DNA of 64,000 nucleotides from positions 26,358 through 90,357 of IMG/VR virus record IMGVR_UViG_3300047457_001149; one strand, given 5' to 3'. Below the pieces are notes generated by a model. That model did not search any database. It was not told the origin of the DNA and saw only the letters and a program-made list of their open reading frames with translations. The DNA is from a virus. Each line of letters starts with the position of its first letter. The first letter of the stretch is position 1. The position numbers and the translations under genes are program-made. Positions 6,361 to 63,987 of the stretch are shown here, piece by piece.

Positions 6361-7364
6361 ACCGTGTTGGGGTTAAAGGTAGGGCAGACGGCGTAAACGG
6401 AGGCGAGCGCCGCTCGCTCTGCCGCTTGGGCCGCGTTGACGTTATTCTGCGCCGTCAGCGCGTCGTTGGCCAGCGTCTGGCATCGGGCCTGACAGGCGGT
6501 CACTCGCCGCGCGTAGTCGTCTCGTTGCGACGTCTTGGTGGTGAGGAGCGCCTGATAGGAGCGCGCGTCGCCGACGTAGCTTCCCTGTTGGAGGACGAAG
6601 TTCTTGGCGTTCGTCGAAGCGACGCCGGTCCCGCCCGTGACCGTCTCGGTGATGCCACTGACTACGCCGCGCGCTGTCTCCAGAAAGGCAACGTCCGTGA
6701 CGAGAAAGTTGTAGATCTCGCGCGTCGCCAGACAGTTTTGATCGCACTCGTTCGCGGCCGTGACGGCGGCGTCGCGAGTGGCTTCGGCCGCCACTCGCGC
6801 GTCGCGCGCCGCGACGTACGCCGCCGTGCGCTCTGCCTCGACCGAGGCGCTCGCCTGCGGCAGCGCATACTGCTGCGAGGGATTGGTCGCGAACGCCGTA
6901 AATGAGGTTCGCCACTCAGTAACCAGCGACGAGAGCCTCGCGATGATCTGCCGGTAGGCAGCGTCTGCGGTCGTCAGGTTGTCGTAGATGAGCGTGCAGG
7001 AGCGTGAGAGGTAGACGGTGCGTCCGGTCTGTACGGCGTGCACCCGGTCGCGGGGCAGCTCGGTGATGTCGTTGATGTTGGCGATACGAACGAAGGTGTC
7101 CGGCGGCACGATCAGCACGTCGCTGGAGACAACCCGGATGTACCTTGGCGCGGACGGGTCGGTCTGGCGGATGTCGAAGGGCGTAGCGATCCGCGCGAGC
7201 ACGTCGGATCGAGGATCGGCCGTGTTCACGATCGTCAGGACAAAGAGGTCGGGGAAAGGGAGGTCGCCGCGATCTGTGATCGTAGACGTCACCTCAAGCT
7301 TCACCGACCCGTCGCCGAGCGTGATGGCTCGGCGAACCTGCGTGACGTAGGGGATCGTGCTCAC
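6357..7364 (-). CDS. Virion protein with beta N-terminus and long coiled coil, 335 aa
   Basis: The first ~130 residues are beta-rich (alternating Val/Ile/Thr). Residues ~130-330 are Ala/Arg/Glu-rich and look like a coiled coil, with paired Cys in EACDQNC-like and CQARCQ-type spots. This layout (beta head plus fibrous stem) is common in phage appendage proteins. It overlaps its neighbours on both sides by four bases. Confidence 0.7.
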   Translation of the reverse strand: MSTIPYVTQVRRAITLGDGSVKLEVTSTITDRGDLPFPDLFVLTIVNTADPRSDVLARIATPFDIRQTDPSAPRYIRVVSSDVLIVPPDTFVRIANINDITELPRDRVHAVQTGRTVYLSRSCTLIYDNLTTADAAYRQIIARLSSLVTEWRTSFTAFATNPSQQYALPQASASVEAERTAAYVAARDARVAAEATRDAAVTAANECDQNCLATREIYNFLVTDVAFLETARGVVSGITETVTGGTGVASTNAKNFVLQQGSYVGDARSYQALLTTKTSQRDDYARRVTACQARCQTLANDALTAQNNVNAAQAAERAALASVYAVCPTFNPNTV

Positions 7365-7753
7365 GGCGACTCCGAGTTGTACACGTAAGCGGTCTCGCCG
7401 CCAAAGGTCGTGTTGGTGCTCGTCGCCCAGAGGCGCGTGAGGATGTCTACCCGCGCGCGGGTTACAGCGGCGAAGGCTGACGCCTGCCCCTTGTTGTCAA
7501 AGCTTCTCGTGAACTCCGCCGCGCGGTAGTACGGCTTGTAGGCGTCGAGCGCCTCGCTGCGCGACGGAGGCCAAGAGAGCATGTCAGCCACCAGCGCGAC
7601 GTGCTGGTAGGTGTCCGTCGCCACGTCGAGCACGAAGATCTCGGGCGCGATGTCGCCGGTCGCGACGACCCGAAAGGTCACGTCGTACAGGCTCGCGTCG
7701 GGCGGGTCCCGAGGAATGACTTCCTCTTTTTGGCTAAGACTGATCCACGCCAT
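7361..7753 (-). CDS. Hypothetical virion-operon protein, 130 aa
   Basis: 130 residues with a beta-rich N-terminus (predicted sandwich-like pattern) and a helical C-terminus. It overlaps the following gene by four bases and sits one base from the preceding gene. No family recognised; probably a small tail or appendage component by context. Confidence 0.7.
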   Translation of the reverse strand: MAWISLSQKEEVIPRDPPDASLYDVTFRVVATGDIAPEIFVLDVATDTYQHVALVADMLSWPPSRSEALDAYKPYYRAAEFTRSFDNKGQASAFAAVTRARVDILTRLWATSTNTTFGGETAYVYNSESP

Positions 7754-7754
7754 G

Positions 7755-8675
7755 TCAGGGTCCGATCGTGTGCGTGATGGTGTTCAGGAACGCGGTCTGA
7801 TTCTGCGTCGCCGCGCGCTGCAGCGCGTCTACTTGTTGCCGCGACACGAGAAAGAGGTCTTCAACAGCCTGGGCGGTGGGGAGGATCTGCGTGAATCGAG
7901 TCGTCAGGCTGAGCGGCGTAGGGCTCGGCTCGCGGAAGGTCACGCCGCTGTTGCCCGTCGCGAGCATCGTCGCGCCCTGCATGAGCTTCCATGTCAGGTT
8001 CGCCGCCGCGGTCGGAAAGTACTTCGGTTCGACGCCGGCCGGGACCGCGCTCGGGTCGATCTTCACGAAGTAAAAAGCCCAGTTGCCGCTCACGCCCGGA
8101 GAGGTGAATGTCCGGTCAACTTGTGCAACATTACCCAAGTAGGATACAATCCGAGCCCAGCCGTTGTTCCCAGGGTCGGTGAAGTTAGACAGGTACACCC
8201 AGCGCCCGATGTCGTCGGGGGAGAAGTTGTAGCTCGGAATGACCAAGCCCACAGGTCCGCAAGAAGCGTCGCCGCCGGAGGCGCGGGTTTGTCGAGCTAG
8301 GACGGCGAATTCAGTGTCGGTGTAAGGAGCCTCGGAAGTGAGCCAGGTTGACGGAGGGTTAGTGAAGCCGACCGTCTGCCCCGGAACGACGGAGGCCAGC
8401 GCGACGTCTCCACCAACGCCACGAAGGTCGAGGCAGACGATATTGCAGGGAGGCAGGTTTGTGACGTCGAGCAGCGTCGCGACGCGCTCAAAGGTCTCGA
8501 AGCCGCCAACCTGGCGGACGACGAACATGTAGGCGAAGTAAGAGGGGTCCGTCGCGATCGGCGGTGACCCTGGCGGTACGCTGATCGGAACAGTTACCGC
8601 CCACTGGATGGCTTGATAGCCTTCAGGGCGGATGTACCCCTTCTGCTGAATACGAAGGGTGACCGGAGTAGTCAT
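7755..8675 (-). CDS. Beta-rich virion protein, 306 aa
   Basis: 306 residues dominated by Thr/Val/Pro/Gly beta patterns, with a helical tail (last ~40 residues, ending in an Asn/Thr-rich helix). It fits an appendage or fibre-associated protein. Its ATG shares the CATG palindrome with the ATG of the divergent RuvC-like gene at 8674; the ribosome site GAGGAA for this gene lies inside that gene's first codons. Confidence 0.7.
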   Translation of the reverse strand: MTTPVTLRIQQKGYIRPEGYQAIQWAVTVPISVPPGSPPIATDPSYFAYMFVVRQVGGFETFERVATLLDVTNLPPCNIVCLDLRGVGGDVALASVVPGQTVGFTNPPSTWLTSEAPYTDTEFAVLARQTRASGGDASCGPVGLVIPSYNFSPDDIGRWVYLSNFTDPGNNGWARIVSYLGNVAQVDRTFTSPGVSGNWAFYFVKIDPSAVPAGVEPKYFPTAAANLTWKLMQGATMLATGNSGVTFREPSPTPLSLTTRFTQILPTAQAVEDLFLVSRQQVDALQRAATQNQTAFLNTITHTIGP

Positions 8676-50105: not shown

Positions 50106-50749
50106 AGATGTTCGAGGTGACGGTGCCGGTCCACGGCACCATGATGGTGCTGGTCGAGGCGGAGAACGAAGAGGAGGCGAAGGAGAAGACGCTTCGCGGC
50201 GAGATCGCCGACGAAGACGGCGCCTTTCAGTACGGGGGCATCGACGAGAACGGCGAGTGGGCCTTCGAGGAGGCCAAGGCTCTGCCGGAGCGGGTGGAGG
50301 CGATCAAGGTCGATCTCACGTGGTCGCTCTGGTCGCTGTACAAGGACTACTGGGAAGAGCAGGCGCCGGGGGTGTGGGACAAGATCGAGGGGTTGGAGGT
50401 CGGCAAGTCGATTGAGATCGAGACGGCGCCCCGCAAAGAGATTCGCTACGGGGGTGTTGAGATCAGTCGGACGGAGACGGGGTGGCAGGCCACGGGGCAG
50501 TTCTTCGCCGTGTGGGACGAGGCGGAGGAGCTGGCCGAAACGGTCGGGGTTGAAGAAGACCGGATCGATGAGGTGCGAAAGGTCCTGCCCGTGACGTGGG
50601 AGGGGCCGGGGGTGGACGTGGACATCGAGGTCGAGGCTCCTACACTGGAGGAGCTGATGCGGCTTATCGACAAGAGGGAGGACGTATTACTGGAAGAAGA
50701 AAAGGAAGCGTGGACCAAGTTTGAAAGGCATTTTAAAGATGAACCCTGA
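50102..50749 (+). CDS. Acidic hypothetical protein, 215 aa
   Basis: 215 residues with many Glu/Asp (clusters EAENEEEAKEK, EEVEEDRIDEVRK, DVLLEEEKEA). N-terminal ~60 residues are a small alpha/beta unit (MFEVTVPVHG...VLVEAENEEEAK). High acidity is a feature of DNA mimics and of ordinary phage small proteins alike; no evidence decides. Coupled by ATGA overlap. Confidence 0.6.
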   Translation: MKMFEVTVPVHGTMMVLVEAENEEEAKEKTLRGEIADEDGAFQYGGIDENGEWAFEEAKALPERVEAIKVDLTWSLWSLYKDYWEEQAPGVWDKIEGLEVGKSIEIETAPRKEIRYGGVEISRTETGWQATGQFFAVWDEAEELAETVGVEEDRIDEVRKVLPVTWEGPGVDVDIEVEAPTLEELMRLIDKREDVLLEEEKEAWTKFERHFKDEP

Positions 50750-51161
50750 ACACGTAGTCGCTGCGATCCTGTCGTTGTTTCCTTACATGAGCGGCAACAA
50801 CCGCGCGTGCGTGGAGCACCGGCGATCAGAGATCGCAGCGCAGCTTACCGAGACGGCGGACGCTGGTGTCCCCTCAGAGATCATGGCGGCGGTCGCATTC
50901 GTCGAGACGCACCTCGGGTGCGATCGCGGAGAAGGGGGCGGCTGGGGCGCGCCCATCGACGGGCAGCACCGTCACACGGCGGGGACGCACATGCACGCCG
51001 CGCGCGTGCTCATTCGCGGGCTGGAGCGTTGCGGGGACTGGGACGGATCGATCCGTCGCTTCCGCACGGGGCTCTGTCATCCGACCACGGTCGGCACTAG
51101 CTACCTGCGGCGCGTGAACCTGCTCATCCGTCGGATCGAGCTTCGCGCAGCGGGTCAGTAA
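50739..51161 (+). CDS. Lysozyme/transglycosylase-like candidate endolysin, 140 aa
   Basis: 140 residues from ATG 50739. EIMAAVAFVETHLG places a Glu56 in a helix followed by GGGWGAPID and RHTAGTHMHAARVL, and a late YLRRVNLLI helix. This is the order of small goose-type/transglycosylase-like enzymes with Glu as acid. No signal peptide. It could be the phage endolysin or a virion lysin; neighbours give no help. Moderate confidence. Confidence 0.5.
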   Translation: MNPEHVVAAILSLFPYMSGNNRACVEHRRSEIAAQLTETADAGVPSEIMAAVAFVETHLGCDRGEGGGWGAPIDGQHRHTAGTHMHAARVLIRGLERCGDWDGSIRRFRTGLCHPTTVGTSYLRRVNLLIRRIELRAAGQ

Positions 51162-55920: not shown

Positions 55921-56241
55921 ATGACCCCTCGACTCTACCGCGTCTTCGTTCCGAGCCGTGTGCTGGTACTCGCCTTCGACGAGGAGGCGGCCGCGCAGTT
56001 CGTGCTTGAGGAGCAAGTGGACAACTTGATCATGGAGGAGATGAGTGTCGTGAAGCTCACAGAGGAGAACATCCTGCCGAAGGAGCGCGAAGTGCGGCCT
56101 TACTTCTCAGGTGAGGTAAAGGAGCGCATCATTCGCGCGGCGTCGAACTGGCTGCTCATCATCAAGGCTGAAGAAGACGAAGAACGTCGACAACAAGAAG
56201 ACTTCGCACGCAGGCAGCTGAAGCTGCCGGGCGTCGAGTGA
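55921..56241 (+). CDS. Hypothetical protein, 106 aa
   Basis: 106 residues: beta-rich N-terminus (YRVFVPSRVLVLAF), helical middle, ending with a charged segment (EEDEERRQQEDFARRQLKLPGVE). The last part and the following leader (56184-56279) are duplicated at 56586-56681. No ribosome site is obvious upstream of ATG 55921. Confidence 0.6.
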   Translation: MTPRLYRVFVPSRVLVLAFDEEAAAQFVLEEQVDNLIMEEMSVVKLTEENILPKEREVRPYFSGEVKERIIRAASNWLLIIKAEEDEERRQQEDFARRQLKLPGVE

Positions 56242-56279
56242 CCCACAACTAAGCAGAAGAAGATCAGGAGAAGACCATG
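56184..56279 (+). repeat. 96-base direct repeat, copy 1
   Basis: Covers the end of the gene at 55921 and the leader AGGAGAAGACCATG. Copy 2 is at 56586-56681 with a few differences. The two copies flank the first Gly-Tyr-Asp unit, like a duplication or insertion footprint. Confidence 0.8.
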
Positions 56280-56280
56280 C

Positions 56281-56313
56281 TACGGCTCCTCCGAAGCCGT
56301 GCAGGAGGCGTGA
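56281..56313 (+). pseudogene. 3' relic of a Gly-Tyr-Asp unit
   Basis: TAC GGC TCC TCC GAA GCC GTG CAG GAG GCG TGA is a diverged copy of the unit ending (YSEDVQEA-stop) found at the end of the complete units. Its GCAGGAGGCGTGATG supplies the ribosome site for the next unit. Confidence 0.7.
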
Positions 56314-57026
56314 TGTCGGCCCCAAAACTGATCCGAGGCGTCATCAAAAAGTGGGCCATGGCCGACTACGGCTACGCCGGCCGCGGCAACGGCTACGGCT
56401 ACAGCGACGTCTACAGCTTCGGCGACGGTGACGGCTACGGCGACGCCTACGGCGATGGCTATGGCGACGGCTGCGGCGACGCCTACGGTGATGCCTGCGG
56501 CGACGGCTATGGCGACGGCGACGGCGACGGCCACGGCGACGGCTTCGGCTACGGCTGCGGCGAAGGTCGCGGCGACGGCAGCGGCACGTCGACAACAAAA
56601 AGACTTCGCACGCAGGCAGCTGAAGCTGCCGGGCGTCGAGTGACCCACAACGAGTCAGAAAAAGACCAGGAGAAGACCATGTCCATGACCACGACCAAGA
56701 AGACCACGACCAAGAAGCCCACGACCAAGAAGACCACGACCAAGAAGACCACCCCCGAGCGCCCCGTTCTCGTCACCACCGAGCACCGCGGCGTTTTCTT
56801 CGGCTACGCACAGAACACCGACGGCGACACCATCACGCTGCGCGGAGGGCGTCTTTGCATCTACTGGAGCCGCGACGTTCGCGGTTTCATGGGACTCGCG
56901 GCGAACGGTCCCACGGCGAGTTGCCGCATCGGGCCTGCCGCGGACATCACGCTCCGCAAGGTCACGGCGGTCGTCGAGGTGACTGAAGCCGCGGTGATGG
57001 CGTGGGAGGCGGCGCCGTGGGGCTGA
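56313..57026 (+). CDS. Gly-Tyr-Asp repeat protein, unit 1, in frame with the DUF6948-like gene
   Basis: Starts MSAPKLIRGVIKKWAMADYG, then ~80 residues of G-Y-G-D-G-type repeat (with Cys and Phe variants). It does not end in the usual YSEDVQ tail. Instead it reads without a stop through the second 96-base repeat (in another frame from the original) and into the DUF6948-like gene, so a 237-residue fusion is possible. A shorter DUF6948-like protein can start at 56679. ATG 56313 has AGGAGG just upstream; ATG 56277 is an alternative. Confidence 0.6.
   Translation: MSAPKLIRGVIKKWAMADYGYAGRGNGYGYSDVYSFGDGDGYGDAYGDGYGDGCGDAYGDACGDGYGDGDGDGHGDGFGYGCGEGRGDGSGTSTTKRLRTQAAEAAGRRVTHNESEKDQEKTMSMTTTKKTTTKKPTTKKTTTKKTTPERPVLVTTEHRGVFFGYAQNTDGDTITLRGGRLCIYWSRDVRGFMGLAANGPTASCRIGPAADITLRKVTAVVEVTEAAVMAWEAAPWG
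56586..56681 (+). repeat. 96-base direct repeat, copy 2
   Basis: See 56184-56279. Ends in AGGAGAAGACCATG, whose ATG (56679) starts the DUF6948-like gene. Confidence 0.8.
56679..57026 (+). CDS. DUF6948-like protein with Thr/Lys repeat N-terminus, 115 aa
   Basis: 115 residues. The first ~28 are a Thr-Thr-Lys-Lys repeat (MSMTTTKKTTTKK...), then TEHRGVFFGYA, TITLRGGRLCIYWSRDVRGFMGLAANGP and a late MAWEAAPWG, matching the DUF6948 family outline (phage and plasmid, unknown role). GGAGAAGACC precedes ATG 56679. Its end overlaps unit 2 by 25 bases. Confidence 0.65.
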   Translation: MSMTTTKKTTTKKPTTKKTTTKKTTPERPVLVTTEHRGVFFGYAQNTDGDTITLRGGRLCIYWSRDVRGFMGLAANGPTASCRIGPAADITLRKVTAVVEVTEAAVMAWEAAPWG

Positions 57027-57244
57027 TCCGAGGCGTCGTTGAGGCGTGGGCTGCCGCCGAAGACGGCTGCGGCGACGGCTTCGGCTACGGCAACGGCGAA
57101 GGCTACGGCTACGGCAACGGCTTCGGCTACGGCGGCGGCTTCGGCTGCGGCGACGGCTTCGGCGGAGGCGGCGGCTACGGCTACGGCTTCGGCGGAGGCG
57201 GCGGCTACGGCGTCGGTTACTCCGAAGACGTGCAGGAAGCGTGA
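57002..57244 (+). CDS. Gly-Tyr-Asp repeat protein, unit 2 (5'-truncated), 80 aa
   Basis: The usual start (M-x-x-PK) is missing; GLIRGVVEAWAAAEDG joins directly to the end of the DUF6948-like gene. Possible starts are GTG 57002 or 57017. The repeat (G-F/Y-G-N/G-G) ends with VGYSEDVQEA. Shares the family N-core and C-tail, so it is a real member whose 5' end was lost in a junction. Confidence 0.6.
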   Translation: MGGGAVGLIRGVVEAWAAAEDGCGDGFGYGNGEGYGYGNGFGYGGGFGCGDGFGGGGGYGYGFGGGGGYGVGYSEDVQEA

Positions 57245-57471
57245 TGTCGAACCCGAAACTAATCCGAGGCGTCGCTGAGACGTGGGCCATGTCCGACTAC
57301 GGCTACGGCTACGGCTACGGCGACGGCTACGGCTACGGCTACGGCGACGGCTTCGGCTACGGCTACGGCTACGGCTACGGCGACGGCGAAGGCTACGGCT
57401 ACGGCGAAGGCTACGGCTACGGCGACGGCGACGGCGCCGGTTACTCCGAAGACGTGCAGGCGGCGCGATGA
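57244..57471 (+). CDS. Gly-Tyr-Asp repeat protein, unit 3, 75 aa
   Basis: MSNPKLIRGVAETWAMSDYG followed by ~40 residues of G-Y-G and G-D-G, ending GAGYSEDVQAAR. Starts one base inside the stop of unit 2 (TGATG). The sequence GTGCAGGAAGCG before ATG both encodes VQEA of the previous unit and supplies its ribosome site. Confidence 0.7.
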   Translation: MSNPKLIRGVAETWAMSDYGYGYGYGDGYGYGYGDGFGYGYGYGYGDGEGYGYGEGYGYGDGDGAGYSEDVQAAR

Positions 57472-57698
57472 CGAGCCCGAAACTGATCCGAGGAGTCGTT
57501 GAGCCGTGGGCCATGGCCGACTACGGCTACGGCTACGGCGGCTACGGCTACGGCTACGACTGCGGCGTGGGCTACGGCTGCGGCGTGGGCTACGGCTTCG
57601 GCGACGGCGACGGCGACGGCGACGGCCACGGCTACGGCCGCAGCTACCTCTCCGGCGACGGCGGCGGTTACTCCGAAGACGTGCAGGCGGCGCGATGA
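57468..57698 (+). CDS. Gly-Tyr-Asp repeat protein, unit 4, 76 aa
   Basis: MTSPKLIRGVVEPWAMADYG, then a repeat with Cys-Gly-Val and Asp-Gly blocks, an unusual HGYGRSYLSGDGGG near the end, then YSEDVQAAR. Overlaps unit 3 by four bases. Confidence 0.7.
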   Translation: MTSPKLIRGVVEPWAMADYGYGYGGYGYGYDCGVGYGCGVGYGFGDGDGDGDGHGYGRSYLSGDGGGYSEDVQAAR

Positions 57699-58027
57699 CG
57701 AGCCCGAAACTAATCCGAGGCGTCGTCGAAGACTGGGCTGCCGCCGAAGACGGCTTTGGCGACGGCTTTGGCGACGTCTTCGGCTACGGCTTTGGCTACG
57801 GCGACGGCTTCGGCTACGGCTGCGTCAACGGCGACGGCTACGGCTTCGGCTGCGTAAACGGCGACGGCTACGGCTACGGCTACGGCTTCGGCGACGGCGA
57901 CGGCTTCGGCGACAGCGACGGCTACGGCGACGGCTACGGCTACGGCGGCGGCGACGCCTACGGCGGCGGCTACGGCAACGGCGACGGCTACGGTGACGGA
58001 TACTCCGAAGACGTGAAGGAGGCGTGA
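57695..58027 (+). CDS. Gly-Tyr-Asp repeat protein, unit 5, 110 aa
   Basis: The longest unit: MTSPKLIRGVVEDWAAAEDG, then ~80 residues of G-F/Y-G-D/N blocks (two copies of GCVNGDGYG), ending GDGYSEDVKEA. Overlaps unit 4 by four bases and ends in TGATG with the next gene. The residue composition suggests a disordered, aromatic-rich chain. Confidence 0.7.
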   Translation: MTSPKLIRGVVEDWAAAEDGFGDGFGDVFGYGFGYGDGFGYGCVNGDGYGFGCVNGDGYGYGYGFGDGDGFGDSDGYGDGYGYGGGDAYGGGYGNGDGYGDGYSEDVKEA

Positions 58028-58785
58028 TGCCGTCTCTCTGGTCAAAGAGCCGCCCTCGGCACCTCAAGATCATCAGCGAGGTCGACCAGGAGCCCCTACC
58101 TGATCGGCTTCATATCACCGCGAACTCGAAGACCGGCGTGTCTATCGACTTCGCGGTGCACCTCACGTGCTCACCTACCCAGGTGTGCATGGGTTACGGC
58201 GAGGAGTCAGCGGGGTGCTACGCGCTCCAAGGCTTCATGTCGTTCCCTAACGCCGTAAAGCACCACGTGCGAAATCAACGGCTGATGGAGGACCTCGTGG
58301 CGCGAAAGCCGCAAGAGGTGCTCCAGGTTGCGACGAAGCTCTGGGCAGACTTGCCCCGGGGCGTCGATTGGATCCGCTGGAACGGCGCGGGCGACTTGTC
58401 GCTCGGCGCCGTTCGGCTGATCAACGCGTTCTCAGCGAGGTACCCGGAGATCATCCTCTGGATCACCACGCGCCTTCCGGATCTCGCCTGCGAGATCAAA
58501 GACCGAAAGTCCATCCGGCTTCTCCTCTCGCTCGATCGCTCGACGCCGCCGAAGGTGGCCGAGAGAATCTGGGCGGTGCCAGAGAGGTTCCGTAAGGGCG
58601 TGGCGCGAGTCTCGTACACGCGCGTCTCTGAGGCCGACGTGCCGCCGAAAGGCGTGCACGTCGTCTTCAACAAGCACACATCAGGCAGATACAACGACTG
58701 GCCGCACGTGCGGGTGTGCCCCGCGTCGCTCTCGACCGGAGAGCACGAGGGTGCGTGCGACCCGTGCAGGAAGTGTTTCAAATGA
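58027..58785 (+). CDS. Gp88-like cysteine-containing protein, 252 aa
   Basis: 252 residues. Early segment LTCSPTQVC...GCYALQG resembles the Gp88 phage family with its paired Cys and CYA; a late C-x-x-C cluster (CDPCRKCFK) ends the protein. Cys could bind a metal or cluster. Role unknown. Starts ATG 58027 in TGATG after GTGAAGGAGGCG. Overlaps the next gene by four bases. Confidence 0.6.
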   Translation: MPSLWSKSRPRHLKIISEVDQEPLPDRLHITANSKTGVSIDFAVHLTCSPTQVCMGYGEESAGCYALQGFMSFPNAVKHHVRNQRLMEDLVARKPQEVLQVATKLWADLPRGVDWIRWNGAGDLSLGAVRLINAFSARYPEIILWITTRLPDLACEIKDRKSIRLLLSLDRSTPPKVAERIWAVPERFRKGVARVSYTRVSEADVPPKGVHVVFNKHTSGRYNDWPHVRVCPASLSTGEHEGACDPCRKCFK

Positions 58786-59094: not shown

Positions 59095-59169
59095 GCTGAC
59101 GTAGCTCAACGGTAGAGCTCCGGCTTTGTAATCCGGGGGTTGAGGGTTCGATTCCCTTCGTCAGCTCCA
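59095..59169 (+). tRNA. tRNA-Thr (anticodon TGT)
   Basis: Folds as a cloverleaf: acceptor GCTGACG/CGTCAGC, D stem GCTC/GAGC, anticodon stem CCGGC/TCCGG with a C-T mismatch at 31-39, loop TTTGTAA (anticodon TGT), T stem GAGGG/CCCTT with TTCGATT loop, discriminator T, encoded CCA. It would read ACA and, by wobble, other Thr codons. Confidence 0.9.
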
Positions 59170-59184: not shown

Positions 59185-60012
59185 ATGCCACGGGTGACGT
59201 GGACCAAAGAAGAGGATGATGTTCTCAGGCGGGCGTATCGAAAGATCGTCGGGCGGACGACGCAGGAGAGCGTTTGGCGAAAGATCTTGGAGCAGCTGCC
59301 GCGCCGTTCGAAGGCGTCGTGCCTTGTGCGCGCGAGCAAGCTCAGGATCGCTAACAAGGCGAGGTGGTCAGAGGCAGAGGACAAGATCATCAGGGATTGG
59401 TTCGCCGACGGCTCTGTTCGCGGCATAAAGAAGCTCCTGCCCCGGCGGAGCTGGGAGGCGATCAAAGGCCGCGCCAAGCGGCTCGGGGTCAATTCGCTTC
59501 GCTGGCAGGGCTACGTGTCGGTGACGGAGGCGGCGGCGCGCCTGAACTTCTCGTTGTCTTACTTCACGAACATCTTGAAGGCGATGGGCGTGGCGCTGCG
59601 AAATCGCGCAAACGAAGGAGGTAAGAGGGCACGCTACCGCCATCATGTGGTCGAGTGGGAAGAGGCCGAGGACGCGGTCAAGCGTTGGTTGGCGCTGGAC
59701 ACGACGCGCGCGGCGGCGGAGCGGTGGGGACTTAAACGGGACCGAGTGCAGCGCTGGGTCCGGGAGGCGCGTGGGTATCAAGAGAAGCCGGGGGTGGCGC
59801 TGAGGCTGCCTGCGGCAGAGTTCGACAAGATCATCAAGGAACGACTCGAAAAAGGAAAGAGGGCGAAAGATGGCGAACAACTATCAGCTGTGGAGCGAGA
59901 GCGTCGAGAACCTTTCGGACGAGGAGATCGAGTGGATCAAGGACACACTTACCTGGTCTCCTACGGAGGAGGAGGAGGAGGACCCGAACTTCGAGTGTCC
60001 CGCGTGGTATGA
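59185..60012 (+). CDS. Myb/SANT-like DNA-binding protein, 275 aa
   Basis: 275 residues. Two Myb/SANT-like starts, WTKEEDDVLRRAYRK (~6) and WSEAEDKIIRDWF (~61), then further helix-turn-helix-like segments (VTEAAARLNFSLSYFT; TRAAAERWGLKRDRVQRWV), as in phage transcriptional or homing-associated DNA binders. GGAAGGAGGGCCT precedes ATG 59185. Its last ~48 residues (Gly-rich, low-complexity) overlap the next gene by 143 bases and look out of place. Confidence 0.65.
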   Translation: MPRVTWTKEEDDVLRRAYRKIVGRTTQESVWRKILEQLPRRSKASCLVRASKLRIANKARWSEAEDKIIRDWFADGSVRGIKKLLPRRSWEAIKGRAKRLGVNSLRWQGYVSVTEAAARLNFSLSYFTNILKAMGVALRNRANEGGKRARYRHHVVEWEEAEDAVKRWLALDTTRAAAERWGLKRDRVQRWVREARGYQEKPGVALRLPAAEFDKIIKERLEKGKRAKDGEQLSAVERERREPFGRGDRVDQGHTYLVSYGGGGGGPELRVSRVV

Positions 60013-60313
60013 CCGCGACGCAGGGGGTTGCGGCTTCGACTACAACCTCGACAAGAAGTCCAGGTCGCTGCACGTATACTCCGAAGAGAACGGCAACCTG
60101 GACGCCTTGGTGGACTTCCTCCAGGAGTTCATCAACCGCTTCCGGCCCGAGATGCTCTTCGTGATCACGTGGGCGGAGACGTGCTCGAAGCCCCGGATCG
60201 GCCAGTTCGGGGGCGGGGCCGTGGTGATCCACAGGGACGGCGCCCGGTGGCTGACCGCCTGGGCGTGGGCGCGGGAGCAGGTTGAAGAGATTCAGGCGGA
60301 GAAGAAGGCGTGA
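59870..60313 (+). CDS. Hypothetical protein, 147 aa
   Basis: 147 residues, acidic N-terminus (SDEEIEWIKDTLTWSPTEEEEED), Cys pair, then an alpha/beta C-terminus (LFVITWAETCSKPRIG). GAAAGAGGGCGAAAG precedes ATG 59870. The whole 5' third lies inside the previous gene. Overlaps the next gene by four bases (GTGA). Confidence 0.65.
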   Translation: MANNYQLWSESVENLSDEEIEWIKDTLTWSPTEEEEEDPNFECPAWYDRDAGGCGFDYNLDKKSRSLHVYSEENGNLDALVDFLQEFINRFRPEMLFVITWAETCSKPRIGQFGGGAVVIHRDGARWLTAWAWAREQVEEIQAEKKA

Positions 60314-63363: not shown

Positions 63364-63987
63364 ATGCGACGAAGACTGTTTAAGTCGGCGGGTGGTTTGG
63401 AAGGGGGCGAAGGCCACGAAGGCCTCGAATTTCTGCGCGAAAGCTTTGAAGGCCTTAAACGCCTTCGAGAGCTCGCTGAACAGGCGCGTCGCGTAGAGGG
63501 TATTGAGGGGAGGAAAGAGTTTGTAAGGCGGATGGAGGGGACGGAGGGGAAAGAGCTTGCAAATCAGATGGAGCAGCTCAAAAAGAAGATTCTAGAGCAC
63601 TCGGAGGGGCGCGAAGACGAGTTCCTGAAAGGCAAAAGCGTGGCTGAATACATGGAGGCGGAAAGGGAAAAGTGGCGGGACCGTCTCAAAGGGAAAGGAA
63701 ACCCTGAGTCCTCGAAGTCTTTGGAAGGCTTGCGGGGGGCGCTTAAGGGCGAGGGTCTATCGGAGCCGCCGCGTCGACACGAGGCGGCTCCGGCGGCGGC
63801 CCGGGTCCTCGGTAAGGTGCCTAGAGCTCCAAGCCCCACGTCCCCGCACGTACCTCCGGTGGCGGCCCACGTTCCTGCCCCGCACGTACCTCCGGTGGCG
63901 GCCCACGTTCCTGCCCCGCACGTACCTCCGTCGGTGTCCCGGGTCCTCGGTAAGGTGCCTAGAGCTCTGCCCCGGCTAAAGCCTTAA
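63364..63987 (+). CDS. Charged protein with C-terminal His-Val-Pro repeats, 207 aa
   Basis: 207 residues. The first ~135 are Glu/Arg/Lys/Leu-rich (ELAEQARRVEGIEGRKEFV) and helical. The C-terminal ~60 are a Pro/Ala/His/Val-rich repeat tail (HVPPVAAHVPAP). GAAGAGGAGGAATT precedes ATG 63364, a strong ribosome site. A TTGTGTTATATT stretch at 63326-63337 could be its promoter. Function unknown; the tail resembles a flexible linker. Confidence 0.65.
   Translation: MRRRLFKSAGGLEGGEGHEGLEFLRESFEGLKRLRELAEQARRVEGIEGRKEFVRRMEGTEGKELANQMEQLKKKILEHSEGREDEFLKGKSVAEYMEAEREKWRDRLKGKGNPESSKSLEGLRGALKGEGLSEPPRRHEAAPAAARVLGKVPRAPSPTSPHVPPVAAHVPAPHVPPVAAHVPAPHVPPSVSRVLGKVPRALPRLKP
63801..63967 (+). repeat. Nested direct repeats in the 3' end of the gene
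   Basis: A 36-base unit occurs at 63844-63879 and 63880-63915, with a partial third copy (63916-63930). A 29-base outer repeat occurs at 63801-63829 and 63939-63967. They expand the HVPPVAAHVPAP tail and its VLGKVPRA flank. Confidence 0.85.

Follow-up and report, generated by a model that had tools for sequence, protein, structure and literature searches.

Tandem (Gly-X)n repeat genes in a viral genome and their pairing with DUF6948, a predicted Sm-like protein of phages

Five genes encoding (Gly-X)n repeat (GX) proteins lie head to tail on the plus strand (positions 56313-58027) of the window analyzed here, a stretch of 64,000 nt that corresponds to bases 26358-90357 of the 90,357-bp virus record IMGVR_UViG_3300047457_001149, which encodes helicases in addition to a terminase and a baseplate protein. 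With a probability of about 0.5, we interpret this array as one copy, expanded locally, of a phage module in which two genes encode an Sm-like protein and a disordered, assembling partner. The pairing of the two genes, the anatomy of the GX units, their conserved ends and their evolution as hexamer repeats are established at the level of sequence. Beyond this, the two proteins would be co-expressed and bind each other, their target would be RNA rather than DNA, and they would form condensates.

All five units proposed in a preliminary description of this DNA are open frames at the places given there (Table 1). The N-core LIRGV..(E).WA, also written LIRGVVE.WA, is common to all of them, with the LIRG motif preceding the (GX)n core in each case. 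The C-tail YSEDV[QK], said to be shared as well, ends units 2-5 but is missing from unit 1. There is a relic, though not at the 3′ end of the array as had been assumed; it sits upstream of unit 1, where the region aligns with the other unit junctions and is identical to the junction at 57214-57305 in 77 of 92 positions. For unit 2, the frame does open at the position described, but its start is more likely the GTG at 57017, which follows a GGGAGG string and overlaps the stop codon of the DUF6948 gene by 10 nt. The core of unit 1 runs into the second copy of a 96-bp duplication (90 of 96 positions identical between copies), and its frame stays open through the DUF6948 gene; judged from the sequence, it possibly encodes a GX-DUF6948 fusion resembling the one in the locus L114.

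Table 1 Features of the GX array and its borders, in window coordinates.
Feature	Position	Strand	Basis or remark
3′ end of gene 55921-56241 and leader; first copy of the 96-bp duplication	56184..56279	+	
Degenerate C-tail left from a lost unit (YGSSEAVQEA, stop), immediately before unit 1	56281..56313	+	read from the sequence
Unit 1: N-core MSAPKLIRGVIKKWAMADY and (GX)n core	56313..57026	+	open frame 56277-57026
Second copy of the 96-bp duplication, holding the Shine-Dalgarno site and ATG (56679) of the DUF6948 gene	56586..56681	+	
DUF6948 gene (PF22253), between units 1 and 2	56679..57026	+	Pfam
Unit 2: MGLIRGVVEAWAAAED - (GX)n - YSEDVQEA	57017..57244	+	longer frame opens at 57002
Unit 3: MSNPKLIRGVAETWAMSDY - (GX)n - YSEDVQAAR	57244..57471	+	open frame
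Unit 4: MTSPKLIRGVVEPWAMADY - (GX)n - YSEDVQAAR	57468..57698	+	open frame
Unit 5: MTSPKLIRGVVEDWAAAED - (GX)n - YSEDVKEA	57695..58027	+	open frame
GP88-family gene (PF17338), overlapping the array end (TGATG), in the same coupled gene string	58027..58785	+	Pfam, E 1.5e-9

The gene junctions within the array are TGATG or ATGA overlaps. Because the junctions between intact units (2-3, 3-4 and 4-5) are 83-89% identical at the DNA level over about 96-107 aligned columns, we consider the units related by duplication. The codons of the C-tail had been thought to provide the ribosome site of the following unit; the linkage by overlap holds, but Shine-Dalgarno-like strings occur only in places (AAGGAGG before 58027, AGGAAG before 57244) and are weak before 57468 and 57695. 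Ribosome-site coding alone is moreover insufficient to explain the acidic tail, because such a tail recurs elsewhere (EEDIV in the arrays L141 and L120). Among the 87 core pairs counted in the window, Gly is spelled GGC in 84, and the X position is occupied by Tyr in 31 and by Phe in 10. The window contains further short repeats, a 15-bp tandem repeat at 56687-56752 (4.4 copies, 96%) that encodes Lys/Thr repeats (KKTTT) at the N-terminus of the DUF6948 protein and a 36-bp repeat at 63842-63930 (2.5 copies, 100% identical), as well as a single detected tRNA gene, tRNA-Thr (TGT), at 59095-59169.

Direct homology searches with whole units gave no matches, most likely because BLAST masks low-complexity sequence, and the searches were therefore based on DNA patterns and on partner domains. 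When the N-core was used as a profile by itself, it proved too short to reach significance in the window, and an exact DNA pattern for the C-tail GYSEDVQ returned three matches only, all unrelated. Several candidate families were rejected for the window units: the Pfam models TrAA12 and Keratin_2_head produced low-complexity matches below the curated cut-off, and a serine-rich NCBIfam match lay far below its own cut-off. The core matches to PHROG 18306, 10432 and 11232, uncharacterized phage families, are of the same low-complexity kind; PHROG 18306 matches both the GX core and DUF6948. Pentapeptide-repeat proteins (A(D/N)LXX) were ruled out, as the cores are strict two-residue G-X repeats; pentapeptide runs were confined to other sites, seen in L067 and L132. 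The earlier statement that nothing known matches is thus right in that no named family covers the units, but wrong in treating the family as peculiar to this phage, since the class is widespread.

The same description had overlooked the constant partner gene inside the array. The window protein is a clear member of DUF6948 (PF22253; Pfam E 4.2e-23, 81.7 bits against a cut-off of 27, model positions 2-85 of 85), a family without assigned function. No paper on DUF6948 or the GX repeat, and hence none on their pairing, was found in the open-access literature (subscription papers lay outside the search). When bacterial genomes not chosen for GX were searched for the family, DUF6948 was located directly upstream of a GX frame at all nine strong loci (L269, L270, L281-L285, L287 and L288). 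The family is rare there. It was found in 3 of 385 genomes of Alphaproteobacteria, one of them the GX-chosen center (2/384 without it), in 1 of 369 in the class of G411, which is the GX-chosen center itself (0/368 without it), and in 1 of 395 in the phylum of G409; strong matches numbered one among 284 in the phylum of G402, in a GX-chosen genome, and six among 399 in the order of G408, one being the GX-chosen center. Sixteen genomes were chosen for GX, and eight of these have DUF6948, always beside the GX gene and in two cases below the curated cut-off. In two of the cellular loci, a gene resembling YqaJ-type phage exonucleases, assigned by eye, follows the DUF6948-GX pair (L269, 1987-2898; L281, 2059-2967; module strand).

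Viral loci show the same arrangement. With a profile built here, at least 73 of the 120 loci that a DNA pattern found, among the matches listed, have DUF6948 as the immediate upstream neighbor of the core, and so do all untruncated loci identified through either of two partner domains (15/15 and 6/6). A looser profile placed DUF6948 on the same strand in 91 of the 99 pattern loci with room upstream, again among the matches listed, where adjacency was checked in the stricter set only. The core starts a median of 32 nt after the DUF6948 stop codon; in the window, the next core starts 50 nt after the DUF6948 domain. The DUF6948 subtype also predicts the type of GX flank, with agreement of the nearest neighbor in 38 of 42 cases (expected 25%), although linkage alone could produce this.

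To characterize the GX class, we scanned for DNA encoding GYGYGDGYGYG, a pattern that favors Tyr-rich cores. It occurs in more than 120 viral stretches among the matches listed and yields 64 matches in 257 Gb of bacterial and archaeal genomes, some of them unrelated. In the viral matches, a small frame encodes a short N-flank, then the (G-[Y/D/S/N])n core, and at the end either a short tail or a small C-terminal domain. Other tandem arrays with conserved ends exist, including eight units in L141 (QLIRGEMSR ... EEDIVCKSN), six in L080 (INFEDSQNS ... GVGY) and several each in L120 and L107. Distant phages share the N-motif [LIV][LIV]RG and an acidic [E/S]ED[I/V] tail; for instance, the N-motif VIRGELPTWANAQVGYG of L247 resembles LIRGVVEPWAMADYGYG of the window. 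Of 125 distinct flanks, 22 have [ILVM][ILVM][RQ]G in the last 25 aa ahead of the core, compared with 0.9% of control windows. The acidic tail is missing from many GX proteins, and extra domains are present in some. Scans with two partner domains, made without the repeat, found an in-frame GX core N-terminal to the domain at 7/7 and 18/18 loci, which settles the GX reading frame. The same domains searched by tblastn against cultured phages gave few relatives; cultured examples are therefore scarce. A homolog of one partner domain ('IDG', LTGSC motif) in Riemerella phage CRP6 (WIL01335.1; L230, 2809-3417), encoded between the Erf and DnaB genes, has BspA/LRR_5-like repeats where the GX core would be expected; repeat types may be interchangeable. 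In the cellular genomes, the DNA pattern also matched GY-repeat C-terminal tails of apparent exopolysaccharide tyrosine autokinases (L157, L170, L172, L182, L188, L189, L191, L203 and L212), which apparently are convergent Tyr-rich tails; by analogy, they suggest the idea of Tyr phosphorylation of the phage GX proteins.

GX loci are neighbored by genes for helicases, DnaB, SSB, RecT, Erf, primase, HNH nucleases and methyltransferases. Comparison with near relatives, a check proposed earlier, revealed no array in the records examined (G002-G005, terminase 79-81% identical), while the end motifs recur in distant phages as described above. In G005 (79%), homologs of the window genes 50721-51161 and 59870-60313 are found at 7024-7392 and 8243-8602; in two relatives with a terminase identity of 79%, this matching place has a gap of only about 0.9 kb between the homologs and no array. 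The array block is therefore accessory. This presence or absence between close relatives, together with fast change, an early gene region, a wide range of phyla and multiple flank types, would also suit a decoy for counter-defense or host takeover, in which the hypervariable repeat and DUF6948 block or titrate a host factor and the variability reflects an arms race. We regard this explanation as unlikely, given that no defense-related domain was found in Pfam, PHROGs or NCBIfam and that the alphabet of the core is constrained rather than diversified.

We modeled both partners. The AlphaFold2 model of DUF6948 (pLDDT 94.6) has the order b-b-b-a-b-b-a, and the 50 PDB neighbors listed by Foldseek all come from Sm/LSm proteins or from the LSm-like NatC subunit (prob 0.90-1.00, E 0.02-0.14, TM about 0.5); viral DUF6948 models in BFVD match as well. 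These models predict an Sm/LSm-like fold, a five-stranded bent barrel. A profile of 66 DUF6948 sequences matched none of the PDB sequences up to E = 10; the likeness to Sm proteins is by predicted fold only, and small barrels of the SH3-like type can have proteins, not RNA, as their ligands. The GX unit is predicted to be disordered (mean pLDDT 38), with regularly spaced aromatic residues, which bears out the earlier view of a low-complexity aromatic core between conserved ends.

Silk-like (GX)n proteins show strict G-X alternation, and so do the cores studied here. The GX proteins could accordingly be thought to form silk-like β-sheets through their alternating Gly, as an intracellular or extracellular filament, matrix or coat, for which tandem gene copies would raise the dose. 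This structural role appears improbable to us: the neighboring genes belong to replication and recombination and not to structural functions, the partner is predicted to be Sm-like, the order of Tyr and Asp is near random, and AlphaFold2 gives no β-structure, a weak point in view of the low confidence of that model. The preliminary description had left the choice between condensate or fiber, itself an inference; considering the predicted link to RNA and Sm proteins, a nucleoprotein condensate is more likely than a fiber.

The cores themselves are spelled very uniformly within a locus. The dominant Gly codon accounts for 96% on average, versus 40% for that codon in the remaining long ORFs at the locus, and each X letter is encoded by one codon in 97-98%. 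Between loci, the spelling varies (GGC-TAC, GGC-TAT, GGA-TAT, GGT-TAC or GGG-TAC), while X is almost only Y, D, S or N, in a Tyr/Asp order close to random. Arrays are homogeneous at silent sites while the letters vary, and the spelling fixed in a locus often differs from the codon preferred in the genome (L087, GC 31%, all GGC). The prediction that recombination would alter length is supported by L056 and L064, which have common flanks and 21 versus 48 hexamers, a difference to which assembly collapse could contribute. These sequence features fit a fast turnover of a few founder hexamers under constraint at the protein level. Two other interpretations of the letters were set aside. If AT- or VA-repeat frames were real, the TAC/GAC/AAC/CAC variation would be synonymous, and CAC would be expected to occur often. 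It hardly occurs, and it is the GX frame that continues into the conserved flanking domains. A diversity-generating retroelement, judged here from the codon letters, would produce adenine-templated NNC variation, unlike the restriction to TAC/GAC/AAC/TCC-type codons seen here.

The near-uniform spelling, a mark of recent expansion, and the length difference between near-identical contigs are what would be expected of a selfish or neutral microsatellite, a (GGCTAC/GGCGAC)n hexanucleotide that expands by slippage and whose reading frame is meaningless. Such an origin is nevertheless very improbable, as the same amino-acid alphabet is written with differing codons in different phages, His (CAC) and Ala are almost absent although one or two base changes would suffice to reach them, every locus found without the repeat has conserved N- and C-terminal domains in frame with the core (18/18 and 7/7), and DUF6948 is linked at 9/9 loci. 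A toxin-antitoxin-like addiction pair, for which only the constant order of two small overlapping genes speaks, can hardly be upheld in view of five GX units for one DUF6948 in the window, the existence of fused GX-DUF6948 proteins (L114) and the rarity in chromosomes.

Returning to the two-gene module, related combinations are known from cellular proteins. LSm/Sm proteins with low-complexity tails (Lsm4, SmB/D) join an Sm fold to a low-complexity region linked to RNP granules. The module likewise pairs a predicted Sm fold with a low-complexity region, a likeness of fold only (Foldseek E 0.02-0.14). In Hfq of Acinetobacter baumannii, an Sm core is followed by a disordered GGFGGQ-repeat tail with an acidic tip, and the repeats and their number matter for function (PMC11617691). 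Core, disordered Gly/aromatic repeat and acidic tip have counterparts in the module, where by analogy the SEDV tail of the window and the EEDIV tail of L141 would correspond to the tip. In contrast to Hfq, the module belongs to phages, its Sm-like domain and repeat come from two overlapping genes or from a repeat-Sm fusion, the repeat is G-[YDSN] instead of GGFGGQ, and the likeness is one of predicted fold, with no sequence match found. A disordered aromatic and glycine-rich tick protein phase-separates and relies on Arg and aromatic residues for this (PMC11794139). The GX cores share short Gly/aromatic alternation and predicted disorder with such tick proteins and with FUS-type [G/S]Y[G/S] sequences, but differ from both in their strict G-X alternation, their acidic Asp and the rarity of Arg.

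From these comparisons, we propose the following mechanism for the module. Its first gene, DUF6948, would encode a small β-barrel of predicted Sm/LSm fold that by analogy binds nucleic acid and possibly forms a ring. The second gene, starting within or just past the stop codon of the first, would supply the N-motif, the (Gly-[Tyr/Asp/Ser/Asn])n core and an acidic tail or domain; Tyr would act as sticker and Gly, Asp, Ser and Asn as spacers, while the conserved ends would dock on the Sm-like partner. The pair would form or regulate a nucleoprotein assembly in early infection, and in the phage studied here the second gene has been duplicated to five units. More tentatively, as a possibility that we rate below the module itself, phages of many bacterial phyla may carry a two-component RNP-condensate system in which an Sm-like ring and a hypervariable Gly-Tyr sticker from a gene of its own organize phage or host RNA or ssDNA in early infection, and the array would then offer several sticker variants per ring.

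With these results, a large number of unannotated low-complexity phage ORFs can be assigned the same partner and a recognizable anatomy, pointing to a joint function of DUF6948 and GX proteins. For work on how repeats evolve, the GX genes also provide sticker-spacer sequences of many natural lengths and spellings. If the Sm reading is true, phages would have Hfq/LSm-like proteins of their own, separated from the low-complexity part, and this would directly pose the question of whether bacterial viruses build RNA condensates.
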